A DNA stretch of 64,000 nt from Comamonas antarctica. Its GTDB lineage: Bacteria; Pseudomonadota; Gammaproteobacteria; Burkholderiales; Burkholderiaceae_C. Location: positions 2,659,501-2,723,500 of the forward strand of contig NZ_CP054840.1 in assembly GCF_013363755.1 (NCBI RefSeq). The letters are read 5' to 3'. The notes beneath the pieces are model-generated. The model had not been told where the DNA came from, ran no database searches, and saw nothing but the letters and a program-made list of their open reading frames with translations. The number at the start of each line of letters is the position of its first letter. The first letter of the stretch is position 1. Positions 27,978 through 44,895 of this stretch are shown one piece after another. The position numbers were made by a program, and so were the translations under genes.

Positions 27978-29426
27978 TCACATGATCAAATCATGCGCGA
28001 GGTCGATCTGCCCGACCAGATGAATCTTCATATCGGGAATGCCATCTTTATCAAGACTCAGCAAGATATCACTGGTGTTGCTCTGGGCATCGTAGGACAT
28101 TACCACTTCGCCTGCCGCACCCGTGAAAGCCTGTGAAACGTGGATAAATCCTGGCTGGCCCGCCTTTTGGTTGAAAAACGAGAAGTCGATCTTGTCGATG
28201 CCGGTTTGGAAATCCATGATCTTGTCGAATGCCGCCACGGTGGAGTCGGAGGCCTGGGTATAGACAAAGACGTCCGCTCCGGCGCCGCCCTTGAGCACAT
28301 CCTGGCCGGCGCCACCATAAATGGTGTCGTTTCCGTTGCCGCCATCGATGGAATTGTCGGCGGCGTTGCCGACGATCACGTCATTGCCCGACCCGCCGAT
28401 TGCATTCTCCAGCGTCACACCCTTTGCAATCGACACATTCTTCTTCATTCCGCCGACGTCCGAGAACGAGGCCTCGTTGAGATTGATATTCTGGTTCTGG
28501 CTGTAGCCGGAGAAATCAAAGGTATCATTTCCACCCGCATCCCAGACGGAGAAAATCACCTTCTGGTCCGAGCTTTTGATGGTGAAGAAATCACGCTCGG
28601 AATTCGAATTGAAACCATAGACGGTGTCCCCAGTCCGGGTTTCCATGTTCGCTCCATACAGGCGCTGGATGGCGGCAATGTCATCCATGAGCGGCGCAGC
28701 GGCGTAATAACCCTTGTTATCGCCACCGGTATTGGCCTCTGCCCAATAGCTCATGCTGGTGTACTGGCGGGTATCCTCCGCATAGGATGCATTGCGATAG
28801 GTCGGGTTGCCTTGGCCAGCGTTGTAATTGCCAGGATGGTTCAACCCCAGGGTATGACCGATCTCATGGGTGATGGTCAATCTGCCGTAATTGCCCAGCT
28901 CCGGGTGCAGGTTCGCATACAGGCCGTCACGCGTCGTGGCTTGCGAGTAGTTGATGTTGAACCACGCCTGGCCATCGGAGCTATGGCCGCGGTAGTCCCG
29001 GGGCGCATAGGTGAACGGCATCATGGCATAGGCCTGTCCCTGTCCGACATAGTTGCCGAAGGTGATATTGGCTTTTTCCGTGGGCGCTTTCTTGACGAAA
29101 GTGATATTCGCCAGGTCGGACCAGGATTGCAGCGCCAGTTCAGTCTGCTCCTGCTGCTGCTCGGTGAATTTGCTGAGCCTGGTATTGCGGCCCACGTTGT
29201 ACTGGTTGTATTGCCATTCGGGGAAGGAGTAGCTTACTTCGGCCTCCTTGCCGATCACACCGGGACCATTCCAGGTTTTATTGTCGCGTGAAATCTGTTT
29301 TCCGGCGGCGTCGACGTCGTAGGACGGCTTGTAATTGCGCCCTGCATCACCGCCACGATTTGAATTATTCAGAACACTATTGACCGAGCTTACCGAAGTC
29401 GAAACAGAAACATTGTTGACGTTCAT
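27978..29426 (-). CDS. Serralysin-type RTX metalloprotease
   Basis: Secreted zinc endopeptidase of the M10B family, 482 residues (usual 450-480). The ATG at 29426 has AGGTGG seven bases upstream. After a propeptide-like N-terminus, the catalytic domain carries HEIGHTLGLNHPG (about residues 187-199) with the third His ligand, and the Met-turn SMSYW near residue 225. Four to five Ca2+-binding RTX nonapeptides (GGSGNDVIV, GGNGNDTIY, GGAGQDVLK, GGAGADVFV) lie at about 344-388. The C-terminus ends DLIM, matching the acidic-plus-three-hydrophobic end of type 1 substrates. There is no signal peptide. An inhibitor gene and a type 1 secretion locus flank it. GC content is visibly lower than in surrounding genes, suggesting transfer. 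Confidence 0.96.
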   Translation of the reverse strand: MNVNNVSVSTSVSSVNSVLNNSNRGGDAGRNYKPSYDVDAAGKQISRDNKTWNGPGVIGKEAEVSYSFPEWQYNQYNVGRNTRLSKFTEQQQEQTELALQSWSDLANITFVKKAPTEKANITFGNYVGQGQAYAMMPFTYAPRDYRGHSSDGQAWFNINYSQATTRDGLYANLHPELGNYGRLTITHEIGHTLGLNHPGNYNAGQGNPTYRNASYAEDTRQYTSMSYWAEANTGGDNKGYYAAAPLMDDIAAIQRLYGANMETRTGDTVYGFNSNSERDFFTIKSSDQKVIFSVWDAGGNDTFDFSGYSQNQNINLNEASFSDVGGMKKNVSIAKGVTLENAIGGSGNDVIVGNAADNSIDGGNGNDTIYGGAGQDVLKGGAGADVFVYTQASDSTVAAFDKIMDFQTGIDKIDFSFFNQKAGQPGFIHVSQAFTGAAGEVVMSYDAQSNTSDILLSLDKDGIPDMKIHLVGQIDLAHDLIM

Positions 29427-29485
29427 CACTTAACCACCTAAAAGATATGAATTGCGCTTTTCAGTTCTGTCATGGCGGGAGCGAG

Positions 29486-29500
29486 GTTCAAGGAATGAAC
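29486..29500. promoter_or_regulatory. Candidate operator GTTCA-N5-TGAAC, protease side
   Basis: GTTCAAGGAATGAAC, 60-74 bp upstream of the serralysin start, at a position suitable for activation or repression of its promoter. The same half-sites and spacing recur at 29867. Confidence 0.5.
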
Positions 29501-29866
29501 GCGCGCCCACCGATACGGGCATATCACCCGACAAAAGAAATTGACAACTGATTTGCAGAGAAGTCCAGAAGGACAGGCAGAGATATCGAAACCATGAAAT
29601 TCGCTGTGGCTACCCCTTGAATTTCCCCTGTGTTGCAGCGGTTTTTTCTCCCGCACTGCGTGAAGACCTTGAGAAAGCAAAGCCCTATTGCCCGACTGGC
29701 AATAATGAGCACAACAAAGGGTTGGTTGGTGAGAGGATGAAACCTTCAGCAAGTCACTGAAATCCATCCGCGTGCGGTCAAATGTCGCAACCAGATTAAC
29801 CGCTTCACCGACATTCCGGATTGGTGATGACTGATTGTCGAGAATTTCAATGAGGTCGTTAATAGC

Positions 29867-29881
29867 GTTCACTAGGTGAAC
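29867..29881. promoter_or_regulatory. Candidate operator GTTCA-N5-TGAAC, regulator side
   Basis: GTTCACTAGGTGAAC, 34-48 bp upstream of the IclR-family gene. It has the same half-sites and spacing as the copy at 29486, consistent with an autoregulated divergent control region. Confidence 0.5.
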
Positions 29882-29914
29882 GAAATACCCGGATCAATTT
29901 CCGGGATTTAACCC

Positions 29915-30757
29915 ATGTCCCATCCGATCGATGAAACCAATGCTGCCTATAAGGAAATTCGCAGCCTCAAGCGCGGCATCGAACTGCTGCGCTGCCTGAA
30001 CCAGTGCCCCGGGGGAATCGGCACCACCAGCACACTGAGCGTAATGAGCCGCATCCCGCGCCCCACGGTCAAAAGGATCCTGGAAACCTTGAGGTCATGC
30101 GGACTGGTGCGCCCCACCGACCGGGACGGCCAGTACACGCTGACGTTCGAAGTGCGCAGCCTGAGCGAGGGCTTCATCGACGACGAATGGATCACGCAGG
30201 TTGCCGCTCCGCTGCTGCGGGCCTATGTCAAAGCACTGTTGTGGCCCTGCGACCTGGCGACCATGGAAGTCGAATTCATGGTGATACGCGAGAGCACGCA
30301 TCGCTTCAGCATGCTCTCGCAGCACCATTCCATGATCGGCACGCGGCTGCCCATCCTGCTGAGCGCGGTGGGCCGCGCCTATCTCGCGGCCTGCACCGAT
30401 GAACAGCTGGACAACATCCTGAACATGCTGGGCCGGCGCGACGACGAACTGGGCAAGATGGCCAGGAACAGGAGGGAGATCGACACGATGCTGGCAGAAA
30501 CCCGCCGTTGCGGCTACTCGATCAACCGCGGCGAATGGGAGGACGAGCCCGACTTCTCCGCCATCGGCCTCGCGGTCAAGAGCGCAGGCCAGCTGATCGC
30601 GGCCATCAACATGGTCTATCCCAACGCTTCGGTCGATACCGCCGCCATCGAAGCCCGGTACCTGCCGGTGTTGCAGGAACTGGCGCAGCGCATCGGCCAC
30701 GACAGCGAACCGTGGTTCGCGCAGGCAGCCGACGCGCCCGCGGGCCCGGGCCGCTAG
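29915..30757 (+). CDS. IclR-family transcriptional regulator
   Basis: 280 residues. The N-terminal winged helix-turn-helix (about residues 14-75) includes IRSLKRGIELLRCLN, the recognition helix segment IPRPTVKRILETL and the wing VRPTDRDGQYTL. The C-terminal effector domain contains GTRLPILLSAVGRAYLAA and GYSINRGEWEDEPDFSAIGLAV, the usual IclR small-molecule module of the MhpR-like subgroup. It is divergent from the protease and 28 bp upstream of the first secretion ATPase, so it may control both. The effector is unknown. Confidence 0.9.
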   Translation: MSHPIDETNAAYKEIRSLKRGIELLRCLNQCPGGIGTTSTLSVMSRIPRPTVKRILETLRSCGLVRPTDRDGQYTLTFEVRSLSEGFIDDEWITQVAAPLLRAYVKALLWPCDLATMEVEFMVIRESTHRFSMLSQHHSMIGTRLPILLSAVGRAYLAACTDEQLDNILNMLGRRDDELGKMARNRREIDTMLAETRRCGYSINRGEWEDEPDFSAIGLAVKSAGQLIAAINMVYPNASVDTAAIEARYLPVLQELAQRIGHDSEPWFAQAADAPAGPGR

Positions 30758-30784
30758 CGCCGCAGGCCGCTGCCAAAGGCTGCA

Positions 30785-32512
30785 ATGACGTCCACCCCCG
30801 CTCCCAGCGAGTTGCGCATGGCGCTGGCTGCGCTCAAGCCCTACTTTCGCCGCGCCGCAGCGTTGAGCCTGCTGTCCAGCATCCTGGTGCTCGCGCCCTC
30901 GGTATACATGCTCGCGGTATACGACCGGGTGGTGAACAGCCGCAACCCGCTGACGCTGCTGATGCTCACGCTTGCCGTGCTGGGCGCCTATGCAGTCATG
31001 GAGGTGCTGGAATGGGCCCGCAGCGAAATCATGCGCGCGGCCGGCATCGCGCTCGATGCGCAGCTCAGCGAGCGCATCTTCGGCGCGATCTTCGCGGCCC
31101 GGCTGCGGCAACTGGCGGGGGGCACAGGACAACCCATCAACGACTTCAAGCTGGTCCGCGACTTCCTGCATTCTCCGGCCCTGCTGGCCTGGATGGAGGC
31201 GCCGGTGGCGCTGATCATGATGCTGCTGCTGTTTCTCATCAGCCCGGTGCTGGGCTGGTCGGCGCTGGTGTTCGCGCTGCTGCAGGTCGGCGTGGCATGG
31301 GCCAACGAACGGAGCAGCAAGCCGCTGCTGACCCAGGCCAGCCGCCAATCCTTCGTGGCCCAGCAATATGCCGACAACAGCCTGCGCAACGCCGAGGTCA
31401 TCGAATCCATGGGCATGCTGCACGACCTGCAGGGCCGCTGGCTGAAAAAGCAGCGCGCCTTCCTGGACCTGCAGGCGCGCGCCTCCGAGAGCTCGGGCGG
31501 ATTCGTGGCATTGGGCAAGCTGCTGCAAAACACCATGGGTTCGCTGCTGCTGGGCCTGGGCTGCTGGCTGCTGCTGCACGGCCAGCTCCATGGCGGCGAG
31601 GGCATGATGATCATTGCCTCGATCCTGGGCGGGCGCATGCTGGCGCCGCTGGTGCAGGCGGTCGCGCAGTGGCAGAACGTGATCCATGCACGCGACGCAT
31701 GGACGCGGCTGCAGGCACTGCTGCGCGAGGTGCCGGCCGCGGCCGATGCCATGCCGCTGCCCGCGCCGCGCGGTCGCGTTCAGGTCGAGCAGTTGGTCGC
31801 GGGCGCACCCGGCATTGCCACCCCGCTGCTGTACGACATCCATTTCTCGCTCGATCCCGGCGATGTGCTGGCCGTGATCGGCCCGTCGGGCAGCGGCAAG
31901 ACCACGCTGGCGCGCCAGCTGGTCGGATTGTGGCCCGCACTCGGCGGCAAGGTGCGCCTCGACGGCGCCGACATCCACAGCTGGAACAAGCGGGAACTCG
32001 GACCCCATCTGGGCTACCTGCCCCAGGACGTGGAGCTGTTCGAAGGCAGCGTCGCGGAGAACATCGCGCGCTTCGGCTCCGCCAACCCGGACGCGGTGGA
32101 AAACGCGGCCCGCGCCGTCGGAATCCATCAGTTCATCCTCGGCCTGCCCGGCGGCTATGCGGCCCCGATCGGAGCTGACGGCGCGCGCCTATCCGGCGGG
32201 CAGCGCCAGCGCCTGGCCCTGGCACGCGCGCTGTATGGCAAGCCGGTGCTGGTGGTGCTCGACGAGCCCGACGCCAACCTCGACCAGGAGGGCCACGCCG
32301 CGCTGACGCAGGCGATCCGCGGCGCCAGCGCGCATGGCACCACCTTCGTGATCGTCACCCATCTGGGCAGTGTGCTGCAGGCCGCGAACAAGCTGCTGCT
32401 GCTGTATGCCGGCAAGCAGCAGGCATTCGGCCCGCGCGCCGAGGTGCTGGCACCGATCCAGCGCGCCACGCGCGCCGGACCGGCTGGCAGCACTTCCAGG
32501 GACGGCTCCTGA
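30785..32512 (+). CDS. Type 1 secretion ABC permease/ATPase, subtype A, unit 1
   Basis: Inner-membrane exporter half for RTX-type substrates, 575 residues, PrtD/AprD-like without a C39 domain. Six membrane helices occupy about residues 20-300 (starting LSLLSSILVLAPSVYMLAVYDRVVNSRNP). The ATPase domain carries Walker A GPSGSGKTT, Q-loop YLPQDVELFEG, signature LSGGQRQRLALARAL, Walker B VLVVLDEPDANLD and switch VTHLGS; all are intact. It differs from the next gene in the sequence after NSRNP and in the HSPALLAWMEAPVALIMM helix, where classical PrtD has a FDxPWxPxY block. The unit-1 B gene starts 1 bp after its stop. Confidence 0.93.
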   Translation: MTSTPAPSELRMALAALKPYFRRAAALSLLSSILVLAPSVYMLAVYDRVVNSRNPLTLLMLTLAVLGAYAVMEVLEWARSEIMRAAGIALDAQLSERIFGAIFAARLRQLAGGTGQPINDFKLVRDFLHSPALLAWMEAPVALIMMLLLFLISPVLGWSALVFALLQVGVAWANERSSKPLLTQASRQSFVAQQYADNSLRNAEVIESMGMLHDLQGRWLKKQRAFLDLQARASESSGGFVALGKLLQNTMGSLLLGLGCWLLLHGQLHGGEGMMIIASILGGRMLAPLVQAVAQWQNVIHARDAWTRLQALLREVPAAADAMPLPAPRGRVQVEQLVAGAPGIATPLLYDIHFSLDPGDVLAVIGPSGSGKTTLARQLVGLWPALGGKVRLDGADIHSWNKRELGPHLGYLPQDVELFEGSVAENIARFGSANPDAVENAARAVGIHQFILGLPGGYAAPIGADGARLSGGQRQRLALARALYGKPVLVVLDEPDANLDQEGHAALTQAIRGASAHGTTFVIVTHLGSVLQAANKLLLLYAGKQQAFGPRAEVLAPIQRATRAGPAGSTSRDGS

Positions 32513-32513
32513 G

Positions 32514-34265
32514 ATGGCCCGCGCCCTGGAACGCGGCGCCGGGCGCATCCGCGCAGCGACACAGCGCAGCGAGTTGGCGGGCGTGCTGTGGTCGCTGCGC
32601 CGCGAATTCGCGATGGTGGCGCTCTTCAGCATGCTGACCAACCTGCTGCTGCTGGTGCCCACGCTTTACATGCTGCAGATCTTCGACCGCATCATGGTCA
32701 GCCGCAACCAGCTGACCCTGCTTTTCCTGTCGCTGATCACGCTGTTCCTGTTGCTGGTGATGGCATTTTCCGAGTGGACCCGCTCCAAGGTGCTGGTGCG
32801 CACCGGCATGCAGCTGGACAACCGGCTCGGGCCACGCGTTTTCCAGGCCAGCTTCGCCGCCCGCCTGGACCATGCCGGCACGCACGACAGCCAGGCCTTT
32901 TCCGACCTGCTGCAATTGCGCCAGTTCCTCACCGGCAACGGCATCTTCGCGCTGTTCGATGCGCCCTGGACGCCGATCTATCTCGCCGTGCTGTTTTTCC
33001 TGCACCCCTGGCTTGGCATCCTCGCGCTGGGCTTTGCGCTGGTGCAGGTGGCGCTGGTGCAATTCGGCCACCGCCGCTCGGTCGCCCCCACCGAAGCCGC
33101 GAACCAGGCCAACGCCGATGCCCGCGCCTACCTGCACAGCAAGCTGCGCAATGTCGAAGTGCTCGAGTCCATGGGCATGCTGCAGCATCTGCGCCCGCGT
33201 TGGCTGCGCCGCCACCGCGAGGCGCTGGCGCGGCTGGGCGCGGCGCAGGCGCTGACCCACCGCATCACGGCCTGGAGCAAGTTCGTGCGCTATTCACAGC
33301 AGTCACTGGGCCTGGGCGCAGGCGCGCTGCTGGTGATCAACGGCCAGCTCTCGCCGGGCGAGATGATTGCCGCCAACGTGTTGATGACGCGTACCTTGAC
33401 GCCCATCGACCAGTTGGCCGGCACCTGGCGCGACTTCATCACCGCACGCGGCGGATTTGCGCGCCTGCAGGCCCTGCTGCATACGCATCCGGCGCGCGAC
33501 GCCACACTGGCCCGCACCGACGCGTCCCGTGTCGAGCCCGGGGGCAGGCTCTGCCTGCATGACGTGCAGGCCGTTGCACCGGGGCGCGCGCAGCCGCTGC
33601 TGCAGGATATCAACCTGGTGCTGGAGCCCGGCACGGTGACCATCATCCTCGGCGCCTCAGGCGCGGGAAAGTCGACCCTGGCGCGCTGCATGGTAGGTGT
33701 CTGGCCCGGGCGCCGCGGCGCGGTACTGCTCGACGGCCGGCCGCTCGAACATTGGCGCCGGGCCGATCTCGGCCCCCGGATGGGTTACCTGCCCCAGGAC
33801 ATCGAGCTGTTCGAAGGCACGATCGCCGAGAACGTTGCGCGGTTCGGCGCCGTCGACCCGGACAAGGTCATCGCCGCGACGCGCAGCGCCGGACTGCATG
33901 AAATGGTCCTGCATCTGCCCGGTGGCTACGACACGCCGGTCGGCGAGGCCGGCGCGCTGCTGTCCGGCGGGCAGCGCCAGCGCATCGGCCTGGCGCGTGC
34001 GATCTACGGCCACCCGGTGCTGGTGGTGCTCGACGAGCCCAACTCCCACCTCGACGAGGCCGGCGAAGCGGCCCTGGTGCGCGCGGTGCGCGAACTGCGC
34101 TCACGGCGCAGCACGGTCGTGCTCGTCACCCACCGCCCCGGCATTGTCGCGGTCGCCGACCGCGTCATCGTGCTGCATGGCGGCAGGGTGCAGGCCGACG
34201 GGCCGCGCGATGCCGTGATCGAAGCGCAGCGTCAGGCGCCGATGCCGCCGCCGCCGGACACCTGA
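32514..34265 (+). CDS. Type 1 secretion ABC permease/ATPase, subtype B, unit 1
   Basis: 583 residues, ATG at 32514, one base after the upstream stop. It resembles classical PrtD more closely than its neighbour: IFALFDAPWTPIYLAVLFFLHPWLG in the membrane domain and SKFVRYSQQSLGLGAGALLVI. The ATPase domain has Walker A GASGAGKST, Q-loop YLPQDIELFEG, signature LSGGQRQRIGLARAI, Walker B VLVVLDEPNSHLD and switch VTHRPG. With both A and B intact, a heterodimer with two working sites is possible, or each may form a homodimer. The membrane-fusion gene follows at 52 bp. Confidence 0.93.
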   Translation: MARALERGAGRIRAATQRSELAGVLWSLRREFAMVALFSMLTNLLLLVPTLYMLQIFDRIMVSRNQLTLLFLSLITLFLLLVMAFSEWTRSKVLVRTGMQLDNRLGPRVFQASFAARLDHAGTHDSQAFSDLLQLRQFLTGNGIFALFDAPWTPIYLAVLFFLHPWLGILALGFALVQVALVQFGHRRSVAPTEAANQANADARAYLHSKLRNVEVLESMGMLQHLRPRWLRRHREALARLGAAQALTHRITAWSKFVRYSQQSLGLGAGALLVINGQLSPGEMIAANVLMTRTLTPIDQLAGTWRDFITARGGFARLQALLHTHPARDATLARTDASRVEPGGRLCLHDVQAVAPGRAQPLLQDINLVLEPGTVTIILGASGAGKSTLARCMVGVWPGRRGAVLLDGRPLEHWRRADLGPRMGYLPQDIELFEGTIAENVARFGAVDPDKVIAATRSAGLHEMVLHLPGGYDTPVGEAGALLSGGQRQRIGLARAIYGHPVLVVLDEPNSHLDEAGEAALVRAVRELRSRRSTVVLVTHRPGIVAVADRVIVLHGGRVQADGPRDAVIEAQRQAPMPPPPDT

Positions 34266-34317
34266 ACGCAGCTGCCACGCCGCCACCCCCATCACCTTTC
34301 GACAAACCGGCTCCACC

Positions 34318-35682
34318 ATGTCGCCATCCCCTGCACCACTTGCTGCCGCGCCAGCCGCGGCCGCCGACACCGACACCGACGCTCCTGAACTCGATGGCGC
34401 CCGGCTCGCGCGCCGCGCGGGACGCATCGGCCTTTGGATCCTGGCAGTGGGGTTCGGCGGTTTCCTGCTGTGGGCGGCTTTCGCGCCACTCGACGAAGGC
34501 GTGCCTGGCACCGGCGTGGTGGCCATAGACACCAAGCGCAAGACGGTCCAGCACCTGCATGGCGGTATCGTCAGCAAGGTGCTGGTGCGCGAGGGGGACA
34601 CCGTGCGCAAGGGCCAGTTGCTGATGCAGCTGGACCCCACATCGACGGAAGCCAGCCATGCGGCCTCGCGCCTGCGCTATCTGGGCCGGCGCGCCGAGCA
34701 GGCGCGCCTCACGGCCGAATATGCCGGGGCGCAATCGCTGCACTTCCACGACGACCTGCTGGCCGCGCAGTCAGAGCCAGTGATCCGGCAGCAGATGCAG
34801 GTGCAGCAGCAACTGTTCCTGACGCGCAGCCGCCTGCTGCGCGCAGACCTGCAATCCATCGAGGAAAACATCCTGGGGCTGCAGGGCATGCAGCAGGCCT
34901 ACGCCAGCATGCTGCAAAGCCGCACCCAGCAGCTGTCCCTGCTGAACGAGGAATTGCACAACCTGCGCGGCCTGGTCAGCGAAGGCTATGTGCCGCGCAA
35001 CCGCCAGCTGGAGCTCGAACGCCAGGTGGCCGACGCCAACACGGCAATTGCCGATCTGCAAGGCAATGCGGTGCGCACGCTGCGCGGCATTGCCGAGCAG
35101 CGCCAGCGCCTTCTGTCGCGCCAGCAGGAGCAGCGCAAGGAGGTCGAGTCCCGCCTCACCGAAGTCGAGCGCGAAGTATCCGCCGAGCAGGAAAAATTCA
35201 AGGCCCTGGCCGACGAGCTGGCCCGGCTGGACATCCGCTCGCCCGCGGACGGGCAGGTGGTCGGCCTGATGGCCCAGACCGTCGGCGGCGTGATCCAGCC
35301 CGGCCAGACGCTGATGGACATCGTTCCGATGAACGCGCCGCTGCTCCTCGAGGCACGGGTGCCGCCCCATCTGATCGACCGCGTGCGTGCCGGCATGCCC
35401 GTGGATGTGCGCTTTTCCTCCTTTGCCCATTCGCCCCAGCTGGCGGTCGAGGGCCAGGTGCATTCGGTATCGGCCGACCTGTTGACCGACGAGAAAACCG
35501 GCACGACCTATTACCTGGCGCGGATCGGCGTCACCCCGCGCGGCATGCAGCGCCTGGGGCCGCGCCAGCTGCAGCCGGGAATGCCGGTGGAAGTGGTTTT
35601 CAAGACCGGCGAACGCTCGCTGCTGACCTACCTGCTGCACCCGTTGACCAAGCGCATCGCGGCCTCGATGACCGAGGAGTGA
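34318..35682 (+). CDS. Type 1 secretion membrane-fusion protein, unit 1
   Basis: HlyD/PrtE-type periplasmic adaptor linking the ABC exporter to TolC, 454 residues. A polar Ala/Pro-rich cytoplasmic tail of about 35 residues precedes one membrane helix (IGLWILAVGFGGFLLWAAFA), then the lipoyl/barrel start GVVAIDTKRKTVQHLHGGIV, a long alpha-helical hairpin (about 110-290), the second lipoyl half LDIRSPADGQVVGLMAQTVGG and the C-terminal FKTGERSLLTYLLHPLTKR. It is closely similar to the unit-2 copy across its whole length, showing duplication. Confidence 0.93.
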   Translation: MSPSPAPLAAAPAAAADTDTDAPELDGARLARRAGRIGLWILAVGFGGFLLWAAFAPLDEGVPGTGVVAIDTKRKTVQHLHGGIVSKVLVREGDTVRKGQLLMQLDPTSTEASHAASRLRYLGRRAEQARLTAEYAGAQSLHFHDDLLAAQSEPVIRQQMQVQQQLFLTRSRLLRADLQSIEENILGLQGMQQAYASMLQSRTQQLSLLNEELHNLRGLVSEGYVPRNRQLELERQVADANTAIADLQGNAVRTLRGIAEQRQRLLSRQQEQRKEVESRLTEVEREVSAEQEKFKALADELARLDIRSPADGQVVGLMAQTVGGVIQPGQTLMDIVPMNAPLLLEARVPPHLIDRVRAGMPVDVRFSSFAHSPQLAVEGQVHSVSADLLTDEKTGTTYYLARIGVTPRGMQRLGPRQLQPGMPVEVVFKTGERSLLTYLLHPLTKRIAASMTEE

Positions 35683-35815
35683 AGGCGGCCTGCAACGCAC
35701 GCGCTCCGGAACTTTGCCTACCCGCGTGCCACTCATGCGCAGTGGGGATGGCAGGTTTGCAGTCTGCTGCTGCCGCGTGCGGCACAGCAAACACACAATT
35801 GGCATTTACTATTGA

Positions 35816-35848
35816 ATTATTGATTTCAATAATAAATAGCTATAGAAT
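35816..35848 (+). promoter_or_regulatory. Promoter and palindrome upstream of secretion unit 2
   Basis: In an AT-rich patch within the 286-bp gap after unit 1, TTGATT (35820-35825), a 17-bp spacer and TAGAAT (35843-35848) form a sigma70-like promoter. An ATTATTG-ATTT-CAATAAT palindrome (35816-35833) overlaps the -35 box. Unit 2 may therefore be transcribed independently. Confidence 0.5.
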
Positions 35849-35968
35849 TTGCCTATCGTCGATGGCGTGCTTTTCATCCTCTTCGACTGCAGCCTGCCGT
35901 GGCTCCAGCCAACGGGCAATGCCGAAAGCGCCATCCACTGGCCGGCACCACAACCAGAAGACAAGCCA

Positions 35969-37729
35969 ATGAAAACCGATTCCTCTCCCAACGAACTGCG
36001 CCAGGCACTGGGCGCGCTCAAGCCCCATTTCCTGCGCGCCGGAGGGTTCAGCCTGCTGGCGAGCCTGCTGGTGCTTGCCCCATCGGTATACATGCTCGAA
36101 GTCTATGACCGCGTCGTGAACAGCCGCAACCCGTTCACGCTGCTGATGCTCACCGTGGCCGTACTGGCGGCATATGCGCTGATGGAGGTGCTGGAATGGG
36201 CGCGCAGCGAAATCATGCGCGCCGCCGGCGGCCAGCTCGATGCGCGGCTCCGCGAACGCGTCTTCGACGCCATCTTTGCGGTGCGGCTGCAGCGGCCGGG
36301 CAGCGCCAGCGTCCAGCCGCTGAGCGACTTGCGCCTGATCTGCGACTTCCTTCATTCGCCCGCGCTGCTGGCATTGATGGAAGCGCCGATCGCGCTGGTG
36401 ATGATGGTGCTGCTGTTCGCCATCAGCCCCGTGCTGGGTTGGTCCGCGGTGGTGTTTGCGCTGCTGCAGGTGGGGGTGGCCTGGTGCAACGAGCGCCGCA
36501 CCAAGCCGCCGCTGATGCAGGCCAACCGCAGCTCGATGGCAGCGCAGCAATACGCCGACGCCAGCCTGCGCAATGCCGAGGTCATCGAAGCCATGGGCAT
36601 GCTGCGCCACCTGCAGCGCCGCTGGCTGGGCAAGCAGCGGCACTTCCTTGCGCTGCAGGCGCAGGCTTCGGAAAGCGCGGGGGGATTCCAGGCACTGGGC
36701 AAGCTGCTGCAGAACACGCTGGGCTCGCTGCTGCTGGGCCTGGGCTGCTGGCTGCTGCTGCACGGTCAACTGGGCGGCGGCGGCGGCATGATGATGATTG
36801 GCTCCATCCTGGGCGGGCGCATGCTGGCGCCGCTGGTGCAAGCGGTGGCGCAGTGGCAGGGCGTGGTCAACGTGCGCGATGCCTGGAGCCGGCTGCAGCA
36901 GTTGCTGGCGGCCGTGCCGGTGCGCGCTCCTGCCATGGCGCTGCCGGCGCCGCGCGGGCGGCTCCAGGTCGAGCAGCTCGTGGCCGGCGCGCCTGGCACG
37001 CCGGCGCCCATCCTGCGCGGCATGGCGTTCGCGCTCAACCCGGGCGATGTGCTGGCGGTGATCGGCCCCTCGGCCAGCGGCAAGACCACGCTGGCGCGGC
37101 TGCTGGTGGGCCTGTGGCCGGCGCAAGCCGGCAAGGTGCGGCTCGACGATGCCGACATCCACCGCTGGAACAAGCAGGAACTCGGTCCTCATCTGGGCTA
37201 CCTGCCCCAGGGCGTGGAGCTGTTTGACGGCACGGTGGCCGAGAACATCGCGCGCTTCGGTGCGGTGCAGCCGGCCCAGGTCGAGGCCGCCGCGCGCGCC
37301 GTCGGCATGCACGACTTCATCCTGAGCCTGCCGCGCGGCTACGACAGCCCGATCGGCGAAGGCGGCGCGCGGCTGTCCGGCGGCCAGCGCCAGCGCATCG
37401 GCCTGGCGCGCGCGCTCTACGGACGGCCGGTGCTGGTGGTTCTGGACGAGCCCAACTCCAGCCTCGACGAGGCAGGCAACGCCGCGCTGGCACAGGCCAT
37501 CGCCGGCGCCAGCGCCGAGGGCACGACCTTCGTGGTCATTACCCACCTCGCCAGCGTGCTGGGCGTCGCCAACAAGCTGCTGGTCGTGAGCGAAGGACGC
37601 CAGCAGGCGTTCGGCCCCTGTGCAGAAGTCCTGGGCGCGATGGCCAGGCAGACGCGCGCGGCGGGAGCCGGCCATGGCCCGGCCCCTGCGGCCCCCGCTG
37701 CCGCGCCGCTTCAGCCGACCCTTGCCTGA
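35969..37729 (+). CDS. Type 1 secretion ABC permease/ATPase, subtype A, unit 2
   Basis: 586 residues from the ATG at 35969 (MKTDSSPNELRQAL); a longer frame upstream crosses the promoter and is rejected. It is a close paralogue of the unit-1 A protein, sharing LKPHFLRAGGFSLLASLLVLAPSVYM, HSPALLALMEAPIALVMM and LLQNTLGSLLLGLGCWLLLHGQL. Walker A is GPSASGKTT, the signature LSGGQRQRIGLARAL, Walker B VLVVLDEPNSSLD and the switch ITHLAS. The Q-loop reads YLPQGVELFDG, with Gly where the other three copies have Asp. The C-terminus is Ala/Pro-rich. The stop overlaps the next ATG as TGATG. Confidence 0.93.
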   Translation: MKTDSSPNELRQALGALKPHFLRAGGFSLLASLLVLAPSVYMLEVYDRVVNSRNPFTLLMLTVAVLAAYALMEVLEWARSEIMRAAGGQLDARLRERVFDAIFAVRLQRPGSASVQPLSDLRLICDFLHSPALLALMEAPIALVMMVLLFAISPVLGWSAVVFALLQVGVAWCNERRTKPPLMQANRSSMAAQQYADASLRNAEVIEAMGMLRHLQRRWLGKQRHFLALQAQASESAGGFQALGKLLQNTLGSLLLGLGCWLLLHGQLGGGGGMMMIGSILGGRMLAPLVQAVAQWQGVVNVRDAWSRLQQLLAAVPVRAPAMALPAPRGRLQVEQLVAGAPGTPAPILRGMAFALNPGDVLAVIGPSASGKTTLARLLVGLWPAQAGKVRLDDADIHRWNKQELGPHLGYLPQGVELFDGTVAENIARFGAVQPAQVEAAARAVGMHDFILSLPRGYDSPIGEGGARLSGGQRQRIGLARALYGRPVLVVLDEPNSSLDEAGNAALAQAIAGASAEGTTFVVITHLASVLGVANKLLVVSEGRQQAFGPCAEVLGAMARQTRAAGAGHGPAPAAPAAAPLQPTLA

Positions 37730-39468
37730 TGCGCGCCGCGCCTTCACAGAAATCCGATGCCATGAAAAACCGTGCCCTCTTCCAGCGCAGCGAGTTGACA
37801 CAGGCGCTGTGGTGCTTTCGCCGCGAGTTCGCCATGGTCGGCGTGTTCAGCATGCTGTCGAATCTGCTGCTGCTGTCGCCGACGATCTACATGCTGCAGG
37901 TCTTCGACCGGGTGATGGTCAGCCAGAACGAACTCACGCTGGCAATGATATCGCTGATCACCTTGTTCCTGTTCACGGTGATGGCCTTTGCCGAATGGAT
38001 ACGCTCCAAGGTGCTGGTGCGCAGCGGCATGCGCCTGGACAACCTGCTGGGTTCGCGCGTGTTCGAGGCCAGTTTCGAGGCGCGGCTGAGCCGCAGTGGC
38101 GACGCTGCGCCGCGCGCGTTCGGCGATCTGCTGGTGCTGCGCCAGTTCCTCACCGGCAACGGCATCTTCGCGCTGTTCGACGCGCCCTGGACGCCGATCT
38201 ACCTCACGGTGCTGTTGTTCCTGCACCCGGTGCTGGGCGGCATTGCGCTGTGCTTTGCACTGGCCCAGGCGGCGCTGGTCTGGTTCGGCCACCGCAAGAC
38301 CGTGGCGCCGGCGCAGGCCGCGAGCGATTCGGCGGCCGCGGCGCGCAGCTACCTGCAAGGCAAGCTGCGCAACGCCGAAGTGCTCGAACCCATGGGCATG
38401 GTGCACAACCTGCGCCCGCAGTGGGCCGAGCGCTACTGCCGGGCACTGGGCCTGCAGGGCGAGGCCCAGGGGCTCACGCACCGCATCACCGCGTGGAGCA
38501 AGTTCGTGCGCTATTCCCAGCAGTCGCTGGGCCTGGGCGCGGGCGCGCTGCTGGTGATCAACCACCAGCTGTCGCCGGGCGAGATGATCGCCGCCAATGT
38601 GCTGATGACGCGCACGCTCGCGCCCATCGACCTGCTGGTCAGCACCTGGCGCGGTTTCATCGCCGCGCGCGCCGCGTTTGCGCGCCTCGACGGGCTGCTC
38701 GGCCAGCACCCGGTGCGCGACCCGCGCCTGCAGCGCACGGCGCCGGCGGGCCGCATCGAGCTGCGTGGGCTGATGGCCCATACCCAGGACCGCGAGCAAC
38801 CCATCCTGCACGGAGTGAACCTGGTGCTGCGCCCGGGTACGGTCACCGCCATCCTGGGGCCTTCAGGTTCGGGCAAGTCGACGCTGGCGCGCTGCCTGAT
38901 CGGCGTGTGGCCCTGGACCAGCGGCGAAGTGCTGCTGGACGAACGGCCGCTGGCCGGCTGGGACCGGGCCGAGCTGGGCCCGCACCTGGGCTATCTGCCG
39001 CAGGACATCGAACTGTTCGAGGGCACGATTGCCGAGAACATCGCGCGCTTTGGCGACATCGACGCGCAGAAGGTGATTGCCGCGACGCGCAGCGCCGGGC
39101 TGCACGAGATGATCCTGCGCCTGCCGCAAGGCTACGAAACCCCCGTGGGCGAGGCCGGCGGGCTGCTGTCAGGCGGCCAGCGCCAGCGCCTTGCGCTGGC
39201 GCGCGCCATCTATGGCCAGCCGCAGCTGGTGGTGCTCGACGAGCCCAATGCCAATCTCGACGACGCCGGCGAAGCCGCGCTGGTGCGCGCCGTGCAGGAG
39301 CTGCGCAGCCAGGGCAGCAGCGTCGTGCTGGTCACGCACCGCCCTGGCATCCTGGCCGCCGCCGACCGGGTGCTGACGCTGCGCGGCGGCCGCATCGAAA
39401 GCGATGTGCCGCGCGACGCGGCATCCGCCGCTCCCGCCGCCCCCGCGTCGCGGCTGCACGCGCTGTGA
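37729..39468 (+). CDS. Type 1 secretion ABC permease/ATPase, subtype B, unit 2
   Basis: 579 residues if started at the overlapping ATG at 37729; the ATG at 37762 (MKNRALFQRSELTQALW) gives 568 and aligns with the unit-1 B start region, so either is possible. It is a clear paralogue of the unit-1 B protein: FALFDAPWTPIYLTVLLFLHPVLGG, SKFVRYSQQSLGLGAGALLVI and GEMIAANVLMTRTL are shared. Walker A GPSGSGKST, signature LSGGQRQRLALARAI, Walker B LVVLDEPNANLD and switch VTHRPG are intact. Confidence 0.93.
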   Translation: MRAAPSQKSDAMKNRALFQRSELTQALWCFRREFAMVGVFSMLSNLLLLSPTIYMLQVFDRVMVSQNELTLAMISLITLFLFTVMAFAEWIRSKVLVRSGMRLDNLLGSRVFEASFEARLSRSGDAAPRAFGDLLVLRQFLTGNGIFALFDAPWTPIYLTVLLFLHPVLGGIALCFALAQAALVWFGHRKTVAPAQAASDSAAAARSYLQGKLRNAEVLEPMGMVHNLRPQWAERYCRALGLQGEAQGLTHRITAWSKFVRYSQQSLGLGAGALLVINHQLSPGEMIAANVLMTRTLAPIDLLVSTWRGFIAARAAFARLDGLLGQHPVRDPRLQRTAPAGRIELRGLMAHTQDREQPILHGVNLVLRPGTVTAILGPSGSGKSTLARCLIGVWPWTSGEVLLDERPLAGWDRAELGPHLGYLPQDIELFEGTIAENIARFGDIDAQKVIAATRSAGLHEMILRLPQGYETPVGEAGGLLSGGQRQRLALARAIYGQPQLVVLDEPNANLDDAGEAALVRAVQELRSQGSSVVLVTHRPGILAAADRVLTLRGGRIESDVPRDAASAAPAAPASRLHAL

Positions 39469-39506
39469 CACACGCCGCCCTTCCCTCCTATTCACCGAGC
39501 AGTACC

Positions 39507-40862
39507 ATGAATCCACCACTGACGGCTTCCCTCCCCACCCTGCCTGCCGCCCTGGGCGCTGCCGGCGACGGCGCCCCCGCCGCGGACGCCCGCCGCATCG
39601 GCCGCATCGGCCTGCTCGCGCTGGCGCTGGGCTTTGGCGGTTTTCTGCTATGGGCCGCGCTGGCCCCGCTGGACGAAGGCGTGCCCGGCACGGGCATGGT
39701 GGCCATCGATACCAAACGCAAGGCGGTGCAGCACCTGACGGGCGGCATCATCGAGAAGGTCGTGGTGCGCGAAGGCGACCAGGTGCGCGAGGGCCAGTTG
39801 CTGATCCGCCTCGACACCGCGATGGCCCGCGCCAATCACGAATCGGTGCGGCAGCGCTATCTGGGACTGCGTGCCATGCAGGCACGGCTCACGGCGGAAA
39901 TGTCCGGGGCAAAGCACCTGGAGTTCCACGATGACCTGCAGGCCGCGGCCGCCGACCCGCTGATCCGGCAGCAGATGCGGACCCAGGAGCAACTGTTCGA
40001 GACCCGCACGCGCCTGCTGCGCTCGGACCTGCAGTCGATCGAGGAAAGCATCGAAGGCCAGCGCGGCATGTACGAGGCCTATACGCGCATGCTGCGCAAC
40101 CGCCAGGCGCAGAACCAGTCGCTCAACGATGAGCTGGGCAATCTGCGCGGACTCGTGGCCGAAGGCTACGCGCCGCGCAACCGCCAGCATGAACTCGAAC
40201 GCATGGTGGTCGACTCGAACAGCGGCATGGCCGACTTGCTGGGCAACAGCGTGCGCGCGCAGCGCAGCATGGCTGAACTGCGCCAGCGCGCGTTCTCGCG
40301 CCAGCAGGAGCAGCACCGCGAAGTGCAAACCCAGCTGACCGAGGTCGAACGCGAGGTGCTGTCCGAGCAGGAGAAGGTCCGCGCCCTGGCCGATGAACTC
40401 GCGCGCATGGAGATCAAGTCGCCGGCCGACGGCCAGGTGGTGGGCCTGGCGGTCCAGACCGTGGGCGGCGTGATCCAGCCCGGCCAGAAGCTGATGGACA
40501 TCGTGCCCGGCGCCGCGCCGCTGCTGCTCGAAGCCCAGGTCGCGCCGCACCTGATCGACCGCGTGCAGGCGGGCTTGCCCGTCGACGTGCGTTTCTCATC
40601 GTTTGCGCATTCGCCGCAACTGGTGGTCGAAGGCAAGGTGCAGTCGATCTCCTCCGACCTGCTGACCGATCCGCAGACGCTGATGAACTACTACCTGGCG
40701 CGCGTCGAAGTCACCGACGAAGGCCGCAGGCGCCTGGGCAAGCGCCAGCTCCAGCCCGGCATGCCGGTCGAGGTGGTCTTCAAGACCGGCGAACGTTCGC
40801 TGCTGACCTATCTGCTGCACCCGCTGATCAAGCGCGTCGCCGCCTCCCTGACCGAAGAGTGA
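39507..40862 (+). CDS. Type 1 secretion membrane-fusion protein, unit 2
   Basis: 451 residues from the ATG at 39507 (MNPPLTASLPTL). The layout is the same as in unit 1: short cytoplasmic tail, one membrane helix (IGLLALALGFGGFLLWAALA), GMVAIDTKRKAVQHLTGGII, a long coiled-coil hairpin, ADGQVVGLAVQTVGGVIQPG and the C-terminal FKTGERSLLTYLLHPLIKR. Divergence from unit 1 is greatest in the coiled coil and N-terminal tail. The tolC-like gene starts 4 bp after its stop. Confidence 0.93.
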   Translation: MNPPLTASLPTLPAALGAAGDGAPAADARRIGRIGLLALALGFGGFLLWAALAPLDEGVPGTGMVAIDTKRKAVQHLTGGIIEKVVVREGDQVREGQLLIRLDTAMARANHESVRQRYLGLRAMQARLTAEMSGAKHLEFHDDLQAAAADPLIRQQMRTQEQLFETRTRLLRSDLQSIEESIEGQRGMYEAYTRMLRNRQAQNQSLNDELGNLRGLVAEGYAPRNRQHELERMVVDSNSGMADLLGNSVRAQRSMAELRQRAFSRQQEQHREVQTQLTEVEREVLSEQEKVRALADELARMEIKSPADGQVVGLAVQTVGGVIQPGQKLMDIVPGAAPLLLEAQVAPHLIDRVQAGLPVDVRFSSFAHSPQLVVEGKVQSISSDLLTDPQTLMNYYLARVEVTDEGRRRLGKRQLQPGMPVEVVFKTGERSLLTYLLHPLIKRVAASLTEE

Positions 40863-40866
40863 TTCC

Positions 40867-42225
40867 ATGCCAACCCACCCATTGCGCATCCGTGCGCTGC
40901 TGGCCGCGGGCGTTGCCTCAGGCGCTGCCGCGGCCCTCCCGGCCCCTGCGATGGACCTGCGCCAGGCCTATGACGCAGCAACAGTCCAGGATGCCACCGT
41001 GCGCGCCGCGCGCGCCAACGCCGAAGCGGGCCGCGAGCGCCTGCCGCAGGCCCTGGCACAGCAGCGCCCGCAGCTGTCGCTGAGCGCCGGGCGCAACTAC
41101 AACGACCTGAGCACGCGCAGCATCGACAATTTCGGCCAGAACCGGCGCTGGGACAACGACTACTACAGCGGCAACCAGACGCTGAGCCTGCGCCAGCCGC
41201 TGTTGCGCCCCGCCCTGGGCGCGCAGGTGCAACAGGCGCGCGCGCAGGTCGAGGAAAGCGACGCCCAGCTCGAACAGAACGAGCAGGCGCTGGTCCGGCG
41301 CGTCGGCGAGGCCTATTTCGATGCGTTGCTGGCGCGCGACCAGGTGGGGCTGCTGCAGGTGCAAAAAGCCAACCACCTGCTGCAGCTCGATGCCGCGCGC
41401 AAGAGCTTTGCCGCGGGCGCGGGCGCGCGCACCGACATCGACGAAGTGCAATCCCGGCTGGACATGACGCTGGCCCAGGAGCTCGAGGCCGCGCAGCATG
41501 TCGACTTCACCCGGCACCGCCTCGAGGTGCTGACCGGCCAGAGCGCTGCCCGGCTCGCGGCCGTGGACATGCCGCGCTTCGTGCCCACGCCGCCCGAGCC
41601 GCAGCGGCTCGACGACTGGATTGCGCGCGCCGAGGCGGCGAGTCCCGAATTGCAGGCGTTGCGCGCGCAGGCCGAAGCCGCGCGCCTCGAAGTGCGCAAG
41701 GCCCAAGCCGGCCATCTGCCGACGCTCGATGCCGTGGCGCAGGTGTCGCGCAGCCAGAGCGACAGCGTCTACAACGTCAATTCGCGCAACATGCAGAAGA
41801 CCATCGGCCTGCAGCTCAACATCCCGCTGTACTCGGGCGGCGCGGTCAGCTCCCAGGTGCGCCAGGCGCTGGCCAGCGAGGAGCGCGCGCGCGAATCGCT
41901 CGAGGCCGCGCGCCGCGATCTGGGCGTGCGCGTGCACCAGGAATTCCGCGGCATGACCGAAGGGGTGCTGCGCGTGCGCGCGCTGGAGCAGGCGGTGCGC
42001 TCGGCGCAGCAGGCGCTGCTGTCGAACCAGAAGTCGCTGCAGGCCGGCGCGCGCAGCACGCTGGACGTGCTGCAAGCCGAGCAGCAGCACATCACCGCGC
42101 TGCGCGACCTGACCCAGGCGCGCTACCGCTATCTGCTGGCGCAACTGCAACTGCAGAGCCTCGCGGGACAGGATCGATCGGCCAATGTCGGCCAGGTGAA
42201 CGCCTGGCTTGAATCGGGAGGCTGA
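40867..42225 (+). CDS. TolC-family outer-membrane channel for the secretion locus
   Basis: 452 residues with an N-terminal signal peptide ending near PAPA (about residue 27). Two similar halves give the TolC pattern, each with a helical DLRQAYDAATVQDATVRAARANAE-type start and membrane-strand segments (PLLRPALGAQVQQA; NIPLYSGGAVSSQVRQA). The C-terminal GARSTLDVLQAEQQHITALRDL motif is diagnostic. It is the only outer-membrane component in the locus, so both units would share it. It converges on the penicillin-acylase gene with a 10-bp gap. Confidence 0.94.
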   Translation: MPTHPLRIRALLAAGVASGAAAALPAPAMDLRQAYDAATVQDATVRAARANAEAGRERLPQALAQQRPQLSLSAGRNYNDLSTRSIDNFGQNRRWDNDYYSGNQTLSLRQPLLRPALGAQVQQARAQVEESDAQLEQNEQALVRRVGEAYFDALLARDQVGLLQVQKANHLLQLDAARKSFAAGAGARTDIDEVQSRLDMTLAQELEAAQHVDFTRHRLEVLTGQSAARLAAVDMPRFVPTPPEPQRLDDWIARAEAASPELQALRAQAEAARLEVRKAQAGHLPTLDAVAQVSRSQSDSVYNVNSRNMQKTIGLQLNIPLYSGGAVSSQVRQALASEERARESLEAARRDLGVRVHQEFRGMTEGVLRVRALEQAVRSAQQALLSNQKSLQAGARSTLDVLQAEQQHITALRDLTQARYRYLLAQLQLQSLAGQDRSANVGQVNAWLESGG

Positions 42226-42235
42226 GCGCCGCTGC

Positions 42236-44761: not shown

Positions 44762-44895
44762 GGCCATCTCCGGTTGTTGTAATACTGCCGGCTGGTTTTA
44801 ACCGCTGCACCGGCCTGGCGCAGCACGGGCTTACCCCAGCCTGGCGCACAATGGATGCCTTGCGCGCACCGGCGCGGCTATCTCTTGCAACCAGT

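Follow-up and report, generated by a model that had tools for sequence, protein, structure and literature searches.

Why should a secretion locus carry two different motor ATPases per unit? Type 1 secretion is usually described as a homodimer of an ATP-binding cassette (ABC) protein together with an adaptor and a channel. The question is raised by a locus of Comamonas antarctica (contig NZ_CP054840.1, positions 2,659,501 to 2,723,500), a stretch of 64,000 nucleotides that we call the window and within which all positions are counted. Its genes at 30785-42225, all on the forward strand, follow each other in the order A-B-HlyD-A'-B'-HlyD'-TolC (Table 1), where A and B are two kinds of ABC half-exporter, A-B-HlyD is unit 1 and A'-B'-HlyD' is unit 2. 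A first-pass annotation, made from the letters alone, had read this order, which the coordinates and strands bear out, and had suggested that A and B may form an obligate heterodimer later duplicated as a unit. We asked how A and B behave in relatives, and found that they are constant neighbours in the loci read, are inherited together, share one adaptor and have lost family-wide residues in a complementary fashion. From these observations we infer that an obligate A:B heterodimer is the likeliest reading of the paired motor, and we hold it with good, though not full, confidence.

Four PrtD-type ABC proteins in one locus

All four ABC proteins of the window exceeded the cut-off of the NCBIfam model TIGR01842 (type_I_sec_PrtD; 614.6-637.9 against 510.15 bits), and the HlyB model TIGR01846 gave them 211-267 bits, far under its cut-off of 725.55 bits. 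No further protein in the 5.03-Mb genome passed the PrtD cut-off in the TIGR01842 search. Identity was 72.9% between A and A', 69.6% between B and B' and 69.8% between HlyD and HlyD', and 42.0-43.1% between either A-type and either B-type protein. The signatures by which the two types had been told apart in the first-pass annotation were all located in the proteins: A and A' carry the membrane-domain motif HSPALLAWMEAP / HSPALLALMEAP and the switch region THLGSVL / THLASVL, and B and B' carry FDAPWTPIY and THRPG. Likewise, the four ATPase domains described there as intact are so, with the Walker A Lys, LSGGQ, Walker B Asp, catalytic Glu and switch His present in A, B, A' and B'. A and B are spaced by 1 nt, and A' and B' overlap at TGATG. 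The structure 5L22 (Aquifex PrtD) was the best PDB sequence match of both A and B, and also the best Foldseek match of an AlphaFold model of A (single chain, 12-sequence alignment, pLDDT 82.6, pTM 0.59). As a separate observation, residue 496 of the unit 1 A protein, two residues past the catalytic Glu, is Asp, and this residue is Asn in 62 of 63 proteins of the A clade described below.

A and B are operon neighbours in relatives

Relatives were sampled with A as the query in overlapping draws of genomes from the order (399), the family (399) and the class (369), with up to three candidates scored per genome. DNA was read around 140 hits and at 16 loci from named-species genomes. A scan of the latter genomes by generic ABC peptide patterns gave at least 80 loci, of which 16 (L111-L126) were analysed for locus anatomy; the remaining 64 of these 80 had 24-40% identity to A and mostly partial lengths. 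Since the ABC protein of locus L113 is identical to that of L276, there is overlap between these collections, and a number of loci is not strictly a number of genomes. Among the genomes with PrtD-type hits, B' was also used to search 54 whose loci had not been fetched or were still open, and the remaining unfetched genomes were judged by score alone.

Two kinds of locus were found: single-ABC loci, in which the ABC protein is about equidistant from A and B, and pair loci, in which an A-like gene is followed by a B-like gene. The co-occurring pairs for which the first-pass annotation had proposed a search were thus present in 60 loci outside the window, including Polaromonas (L114) and Limnohabitans (L115), with A first and both genes on the same strand in all 60. 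The stop of A and the start of B overlapped or lay no more than 50 bp apart in 59 of the 60 (L288, 1724 bp). HlyD followed B directly in 57 of the 60, the exceptions being L054, L200 (stops at contig end) and L221 (HlyD further away); a second HlyD was found in none of the 60 pair stretches, and in the window each unit has one HlyD. At L288:13029-14754 (G1015) the 1.7 kb between A and B hold ORFs (open reading frames) which look transposase-like by eye, with A, B, HlyD and TolC intact.

Among the loci read, neither A nor B stood alone wherever the context could be resolved. In four genomes the copies are cut off by contig ends: in G527, A is followed by the first 169 residues of B at the contig stop and the remainder of B ends another contig; in G406, an ABC C-terminus lies immediately before B at a contig start and a truncated A starts another contig; in G550, A is at a contig end with a piece of B elsewhere; and in G174, B (clade B by tree) lies 84 bp from a contig end. 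Two sets of candidates were tried and rejected. The proteins of G809, G654 and G1105, which scored somewhat better with B' than with A and could have been B-like counter-examples, fell outside both clades with residues as in single-ABC proteins. A reported 1185-aa protein of G405, which could have been an A-B fusion, proved to be an ordinary single ABC protein with a 584-aa frame; the database was not searched for fusions.

A and B form two clades that are inherited together

In a FastTree of 194 ABC proteins of at least 480 aa (62 A, 59 B, 73 singles), all 62 A proteins formed one clade and all 59 B proteins another (support 1.0 each). With IQ-TREE on 94 hand-picked rows of 215, for which added proteins shorter than 440 aa were left out, the clades held 30 of 30 A and 30 of 30 B proteins (SH-aLRT, the Shimodaira-Hasegawa-like approximate likelihood ratio test, 100), and in a FastTree of 219 one clade took in all 64 A proteins and the other all 63 B proteins, the latter joined by the B of G174 (support 1.0). 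A and B evolving independently in separate loci, which the first-pass annotation had named as the pattern that would speak against it, were not seen; there are two clades, always operon neighbours where the context can be resolved. Forcing A and B into one clade was not rejected (approximately unbiased test, p 0.526; likelihood 2.35 higher), as would be expected if one ancient tandem duplication gave rise to both.

The A and B trees were compared over 59 units, namely 57 pair loci (in 58 of the 60, A and B each reached 500 aa, and all but one of those 58 carried HlyD) and the two window units. They had 29 of 56 splits in common, against a maximum of 2 in 200 shuffles, and 22 of 33 well-supported splits. 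Distances correlated at r = 0.940 between A and B, 0.883 between A and HlyD and 0.852 between B and HlyD. Groupings across family codes were parallel in the A and B halves (L262 of f1 with L055 of f2, and L058 of f10 with L051 of f1), which suggests that the pair may also move between lineages as one unit.

Residues are divided between the partners

The catalytic Glu was present in every A and every B protein scored (63 of each), the Walker A Lys in 64 of 64 and 63 of 63, and the switch His in 62 of 63 and 63 of 63. A degenerate ATP site, common in known heterodimeric ABC exporters, was therefore not found in either partner. This leads to the strongest of the alternatives, in which A2 and B2 homodimers with different substrates or rates use a common adaptor and channel and are held together by the operon: each partner has all catalytic motifs, each is a full half-exporter above the PrtD cut-off, and single-ABC relatives share the layout with one ABC gene. 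Such homodimers account for the intact catalytic sites; they do not account for the lack of lone genes in the resolvable loci or the complementary losses described next, and the lack of a second HlyD in the 60 pair stretches and an A-B distance correlation that exceeds that of either partner with HlyD also speak against them. We regard this arrangement as unlikely, if worth keeping in view.

Among 125 columns conserved at 90% or more in single-ABC proteins, 98 were kept in both partners; A alone had lost 11 and B alone 6, and the other 10 fitted none of these patterns. Three positions were scored in 59 pairs, a count that does not include the second window pair. The Trp of D-x-P-W in the third transmembrane helix (TM3) was absent in A and present in B in 59 of 59, and Arg391 of the nucleotide-binding domain was present in A and absent in B in 59 of 59 (a gap in B being scored as not Arg). 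The Thr of the FxT motif, which enforces the kink of TM3 in PrtD, was absent in A and present in B in 56 of 59. By clade, Arg391 was found in 64 of 64 A, 88 of 88 single and 0 of 62 B proteins, and the FxT Thr in 62 of 63 B and 2 of 64 A proteins (in the window, FLT in B and B', FLH in A and A'). In 84 of 88 singles the three positions are occupied by W or F, by R and by T or S, respectively.

The presence in B, and loss in A, of the gate residues that ordinary PrtD proteins have in TM3 would fit a second alternative, a B2 homodimer as the transport motor with A as an accessory or regulatory ABC protein which modulates it. B has lost, on the other hand, residues common to singles and A, such as Arg391, and A retains full ATPase motifs and has, between the window units, a ratio of nonsynonymous to synonymous divergence (dN/dS) of 0.34, so that we consider this arrangement distinctly improbable.

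Several points weigh against an obligate heterodimer and should be taken together. Pairing was seen only within the loci read, and the searches with A scored no more than three candidates per genome. The informative columns were picked after the alignment had been seen, and the residue partition might also stem from two specialised homodimers; with catalytic residues intact in both partners, either could homodimerise in principle. The model of A still breaks TM3 at residues 128-130, the FxT position, so that the loss of the Thr need not abolish the kink. Three well-supported splits of the A and B trees conflict, and linkage partly explains the co-inheritance, as each partner also correlates highly with HlyD. 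Finally, the serralysin gene beside the window locus is tied to the exporter by position only, differs from it in GC content and is not closely matched by any ORF of the relatives' pair loci.

With the A:B heterodimer as the preferred reading, the inner-membrane motor would be one A and one B half on one HlyD-type adaptor and one TolC channel. B would provide the classical transmembrane gate of PrtD (FxT and D-x-P-W-x-P-x-Y of TM3) and A a remodelled opposite half. Both ATP sites would be active, since every catalytic residue is retained in both partners, and the unfolded substrate would be threaded through the motor as proposed for PrtD. In the window, A-B-HlyD would later have been doubled, with both engines retained under purifying selection.

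The unit was duplicated as a whole in the window

The duplication of A-B-HlyD as one unit, already put forward in the first-pass annotation, agrees with the trees, in which the window units are sisters for A, B and HlyD separately (59 units). Synonymous divergence (dS) between the units is 0.55-0.72 and dN/dS 0.32-0.38. On these grounds unit 2 is a copy of the whole A-B-HlyD unit 1, an old duplication held under selection. In the IQ-TREE the end branch was longer for unit 1 (A, 0.26 against 0.17; B, 0.31 against 0.23). Within the fetched stretches, the doubled unit was seen in the window only and not in any of the 60 pair loci of relatives; that unit 2 is a redundant copy without functional meaning or an assembly artefact, as this might suggest, is scarcely credible given that the window lies on a 4.2-Mb contig, that the units differ by about 27-30% at protein level with the dS above and intact frames, and that the A+B pair recurs in 60 loci.

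The gap between the units is AT-rich and 286 bp long (35683-35968). The promoter-like matches in it (Table 1) hint, weakly, that unit 2 and TolC may be transcribed separately from unit 1. Both engines probably work with the single TolC that the cluster encodes.

Table 1. Features of the window and examples of the U gene in relatives (bits are scores of NCBIfam or Pfam models)
Feature	Position	Strand	Evidence
Serralysin-family RTX metalloprotease	27978..29429	-	NF035945 Zn_serralysin 664.3 bits vs cut-off 500; PF08548 260.2 bits
IclR-type transcriptional regulator, 27-bp gap to unit 1	29915..30757	+	PF01614 and PF09339 above cut-off
A (unit 1), clade A PrtD-type ABC half-exporter	30785..32512	+	TIGR01842 614.6 bits; clade A in trees; predicted fold best matched by PrtD 5L22 (Foldseek)
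B (unit 1), clade B PrtD-type ABC half-exporter	32514..34265	+	TIGR01842 637.9 bits; clade B in trees; best PDB sequence match 5L22
HlyD (unit 1), periplasmic adaptor	34318..35682	+	TIGR01843 380.2 bits vs cut-off 208.65
Two overlapping sigma-70-like promoter matches, gap before unit 2	35805..35848	+	The sole 2 in 29300-42600; shuffles mean 0.9, standard deviation 0.9 (weak)
A' (unit 2), clade A half-exporter	35969..37729	+	TIGR01842 631.2 bits; sister of A, SH-aLRT 100
B' (unit 2), clade B half-exporter, alternative start 37762	37729..39468	+	TIGR01842 621.3 bits; sister of B, SH-aLRT 99
HlyD' (unit 2), periplasmic adaptor	39507..40862	+	TIGR01843 356.6 bits; sister of HlyD, support 0.992
TolC-type outer-membrane channel, sole one of cluster	40867..42225	+	TIGR01844 307.2 bits vs cut-off 225.15
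U, example in a relative	L256:11055-11711	-	
U, example in a relative	L060:5305-5988	+	
U, example in a relative	L114:2214-2816	+	

Neighbouring genes and possible substrates

Upstream of unit 1 the serralysin gene is divergent from the gene of the IclR-type regulator. The serralysin is the only match of the genome to PF08548 (M10 C-terminal domain), and its gene has a GC content of 0.545 against 0.69 for the exporter locus and 0.679 for the window; with this lower GC it was probably acquired separately from the exporter locus. None of the ORFs in the fetched loci was related to the IclR-type regulator at E <= 1e-10. For the repeats-in-toxin (RTX) model PF00353, one further ORF of the genome (5854 aa) matched at C1:2127582-2128952. 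The four PrtD-type motors therefore have one obvious neighbouring RTX candidate, with the sole other RTX ORF elsewhere, and by neighbourhood alone the adjacent serralysin is a likely substrate of the window exporter. About 2.4 kb from the PF00353 matches there is another ABC gene with a 725-aa frame (C1:2123521-2125140; 306.7 bits, under the PrtD cut-off). On the other side of the locus, an 843-aa ORF at 42236-44767 (-), convergent with TolC, has by eye the look of a penicillin-acylase-type hydrolase.

In relatives, 18 of the 60 pair stretches contained an ORF bearing two or more GGxG(N/D)D repeats. In all five pair loci of family f26 (L062, L063, L064, L104 and L105) A is immediately preceded, on its own strand, by an RTX ORF of 685-744 aa (that of L062 runs to the edge of its stretch), and this protein is the better candidate for a general substrate than a serralysin. 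When the window serralysin was the query against the ORFs of the 60 relative pair loci, none scored above 129 bits (self-score 1087), and the link of the pair to RTX proteases that had been drawn from the window thus does not extend to these loci. Taking the RTX ORFs of the pair stretches together with the missing serralysin counterpart, the pair system probably serves other RTX proteins in relatives, and the window serralysin would be a local addition.

A gene that opens the operon in most pair loci of relatives

In 43 of the 60 pair loci the first gene of the operon encodes a protein, here called U, of mostly 200-220 aa (examples in Table 1), which had no match in the window genome. In the family draw with A, among the matches listed, 38 of 38 genomes with U also carry an A gene. 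A single-chain model of U aligned to the N-terminal part of Cas12f/TnpB (9i8y_A, 4-213; ISDra2 TnpB, 3-175), and the RuvC domain of these proteins presumably lies beyond the aligned residues. By this model U is predicted to have the fold of the N-terminal half of TnpB/Cas12f, with no room for a RuvC domain. Other identities were rejected: a TldR (TnpB-like nuclease-dead repressor) is expected to have an inactivated RuvC domain, and U has only about 200-220 aa and the N-terminal part; HSP90-like matches in PDB sequence-profile searches had E 0.86 or worse and are noise; and the Pfam matches of 29 U proteins were scattered over one or two members each, again noise. Of 47 U loci, 29 (L228, L256 and L115 among them) have a conserved palindrome upstream of U, TTCATATAGGA-(short spacer, -10-like box)-TCCTATATGAA, and its right arm often includes the ATG of U. 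This palindrome is a likely operator for autoregulation, to judge by its position.

Further, we put forward a joint scenario, as a whole tentative and rather to be doubted than believed. It would comprise a PrtD-branch obligate A:B heterodimer independent of RtxB/RtxE, with the TM3 gate residues in one half, both ATP sites active and a single tandem-duplication origin; an operon U-A-B-HlyD-TolC inherited as one; a RuvC-less, TnpB/Cas12f-derived U repressing itself via the palindrome over the -10 box and start codon; and a window form that lost U, gained the IclR regulator and the serralysin and doubled the engine. If a PrtD-type heterodimer is real, mutating one half at a time could tell which half recognises the secretion signal, whether the channel gate has two equivalent sides and whether the ATP sites fire alternately, and the doubled engine of the window provides two natural variants in one cell.

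Comparison with known secretion systems

Serralysin export systems are known from Dickeya (PrtDEF) and Pseudomonas (AprDEF). As in these, a serralysin gene adjoins PrtD-type exporter genes in the window; in contrast to them, the protease gene here is divergent and of lower GC content, and the exporter next to it is a two-ABC system in doubled form. More generally, the window shares with type 1 systems of the PrtD/AprD/LipB type the four ABC proteins above the family cut-off, 5L22 as the best match, the ABC-HlyD-TolC operon and the serralysin neighbour. It differs in that there is one ABC there and two diverged ABC genes per unit here, in that the unit is doubled, and in that A is without the FxT Thr and the D-x-P-W Trp of TM3.

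TmrAB, TM287/288, TAP and IrtAB are exporters built of two different half-transporters, and their structures were among the fold matches of the A model. In heterodimeric ABC exporters one ATP site is commonly degenerate, whereas the catalytic residues of A and B are complete. An asymmetry of TmrAB is described in PMC8277102.

The nearest two-ABC arrangement is that of the multifunctional autoprocessing RTX (MARTX) toxins. For Vibrio, RtxB and RtxE both appear necessary for MARTX secretion (PMC3034196), and a RtxB/RtxE heterodimer has been suggested (PMC4316617, citing Boardman and Satchell 2004). In the clades of PMC4316617, RtxB/RtxE belong to Group 2, and transporters like AprD to Group 3. 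The first-pass annotation had known of no characterised heterodimeric exporter for RTX proteases; a precedent for two-ABC type 1 secretion, with a heterodimer suggested, is at hand (PMC3034196, PMC4316617). The MARTX-type system (RtxB, RtxD, RtxE, TolC) and the present one both have two related ABC proteins with one adaptor. They differ in that the RtxB and RtxE genes flank the adaptor gene and the ABC genes here are adjacent (A-B-HlyD-TolC), in that RtxB/RtxE belong to the HlyB branch and the window ABC proteins, by score, to the PrtD branch, and in that the only RTX ORFs of the window genome are the serralysin and the 5854-aa ORF elsewhere. The PrtD-type pair thus appears to be independent in origin from RtxB/RtxE, and, if it is a heterodimer, the two-ABC design would seem to have arisen at least twice, in the MARTX and the PrtD branch. 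A description of a PrtD-type A+B pair was not found in the open-licence literature. Two-ABC type 1 secretion is accordingly already known from MARTX, and what is new as a comparative result is a PrtD-type pair that forms two clades of which neither member occurs alone in the resolvable loci.

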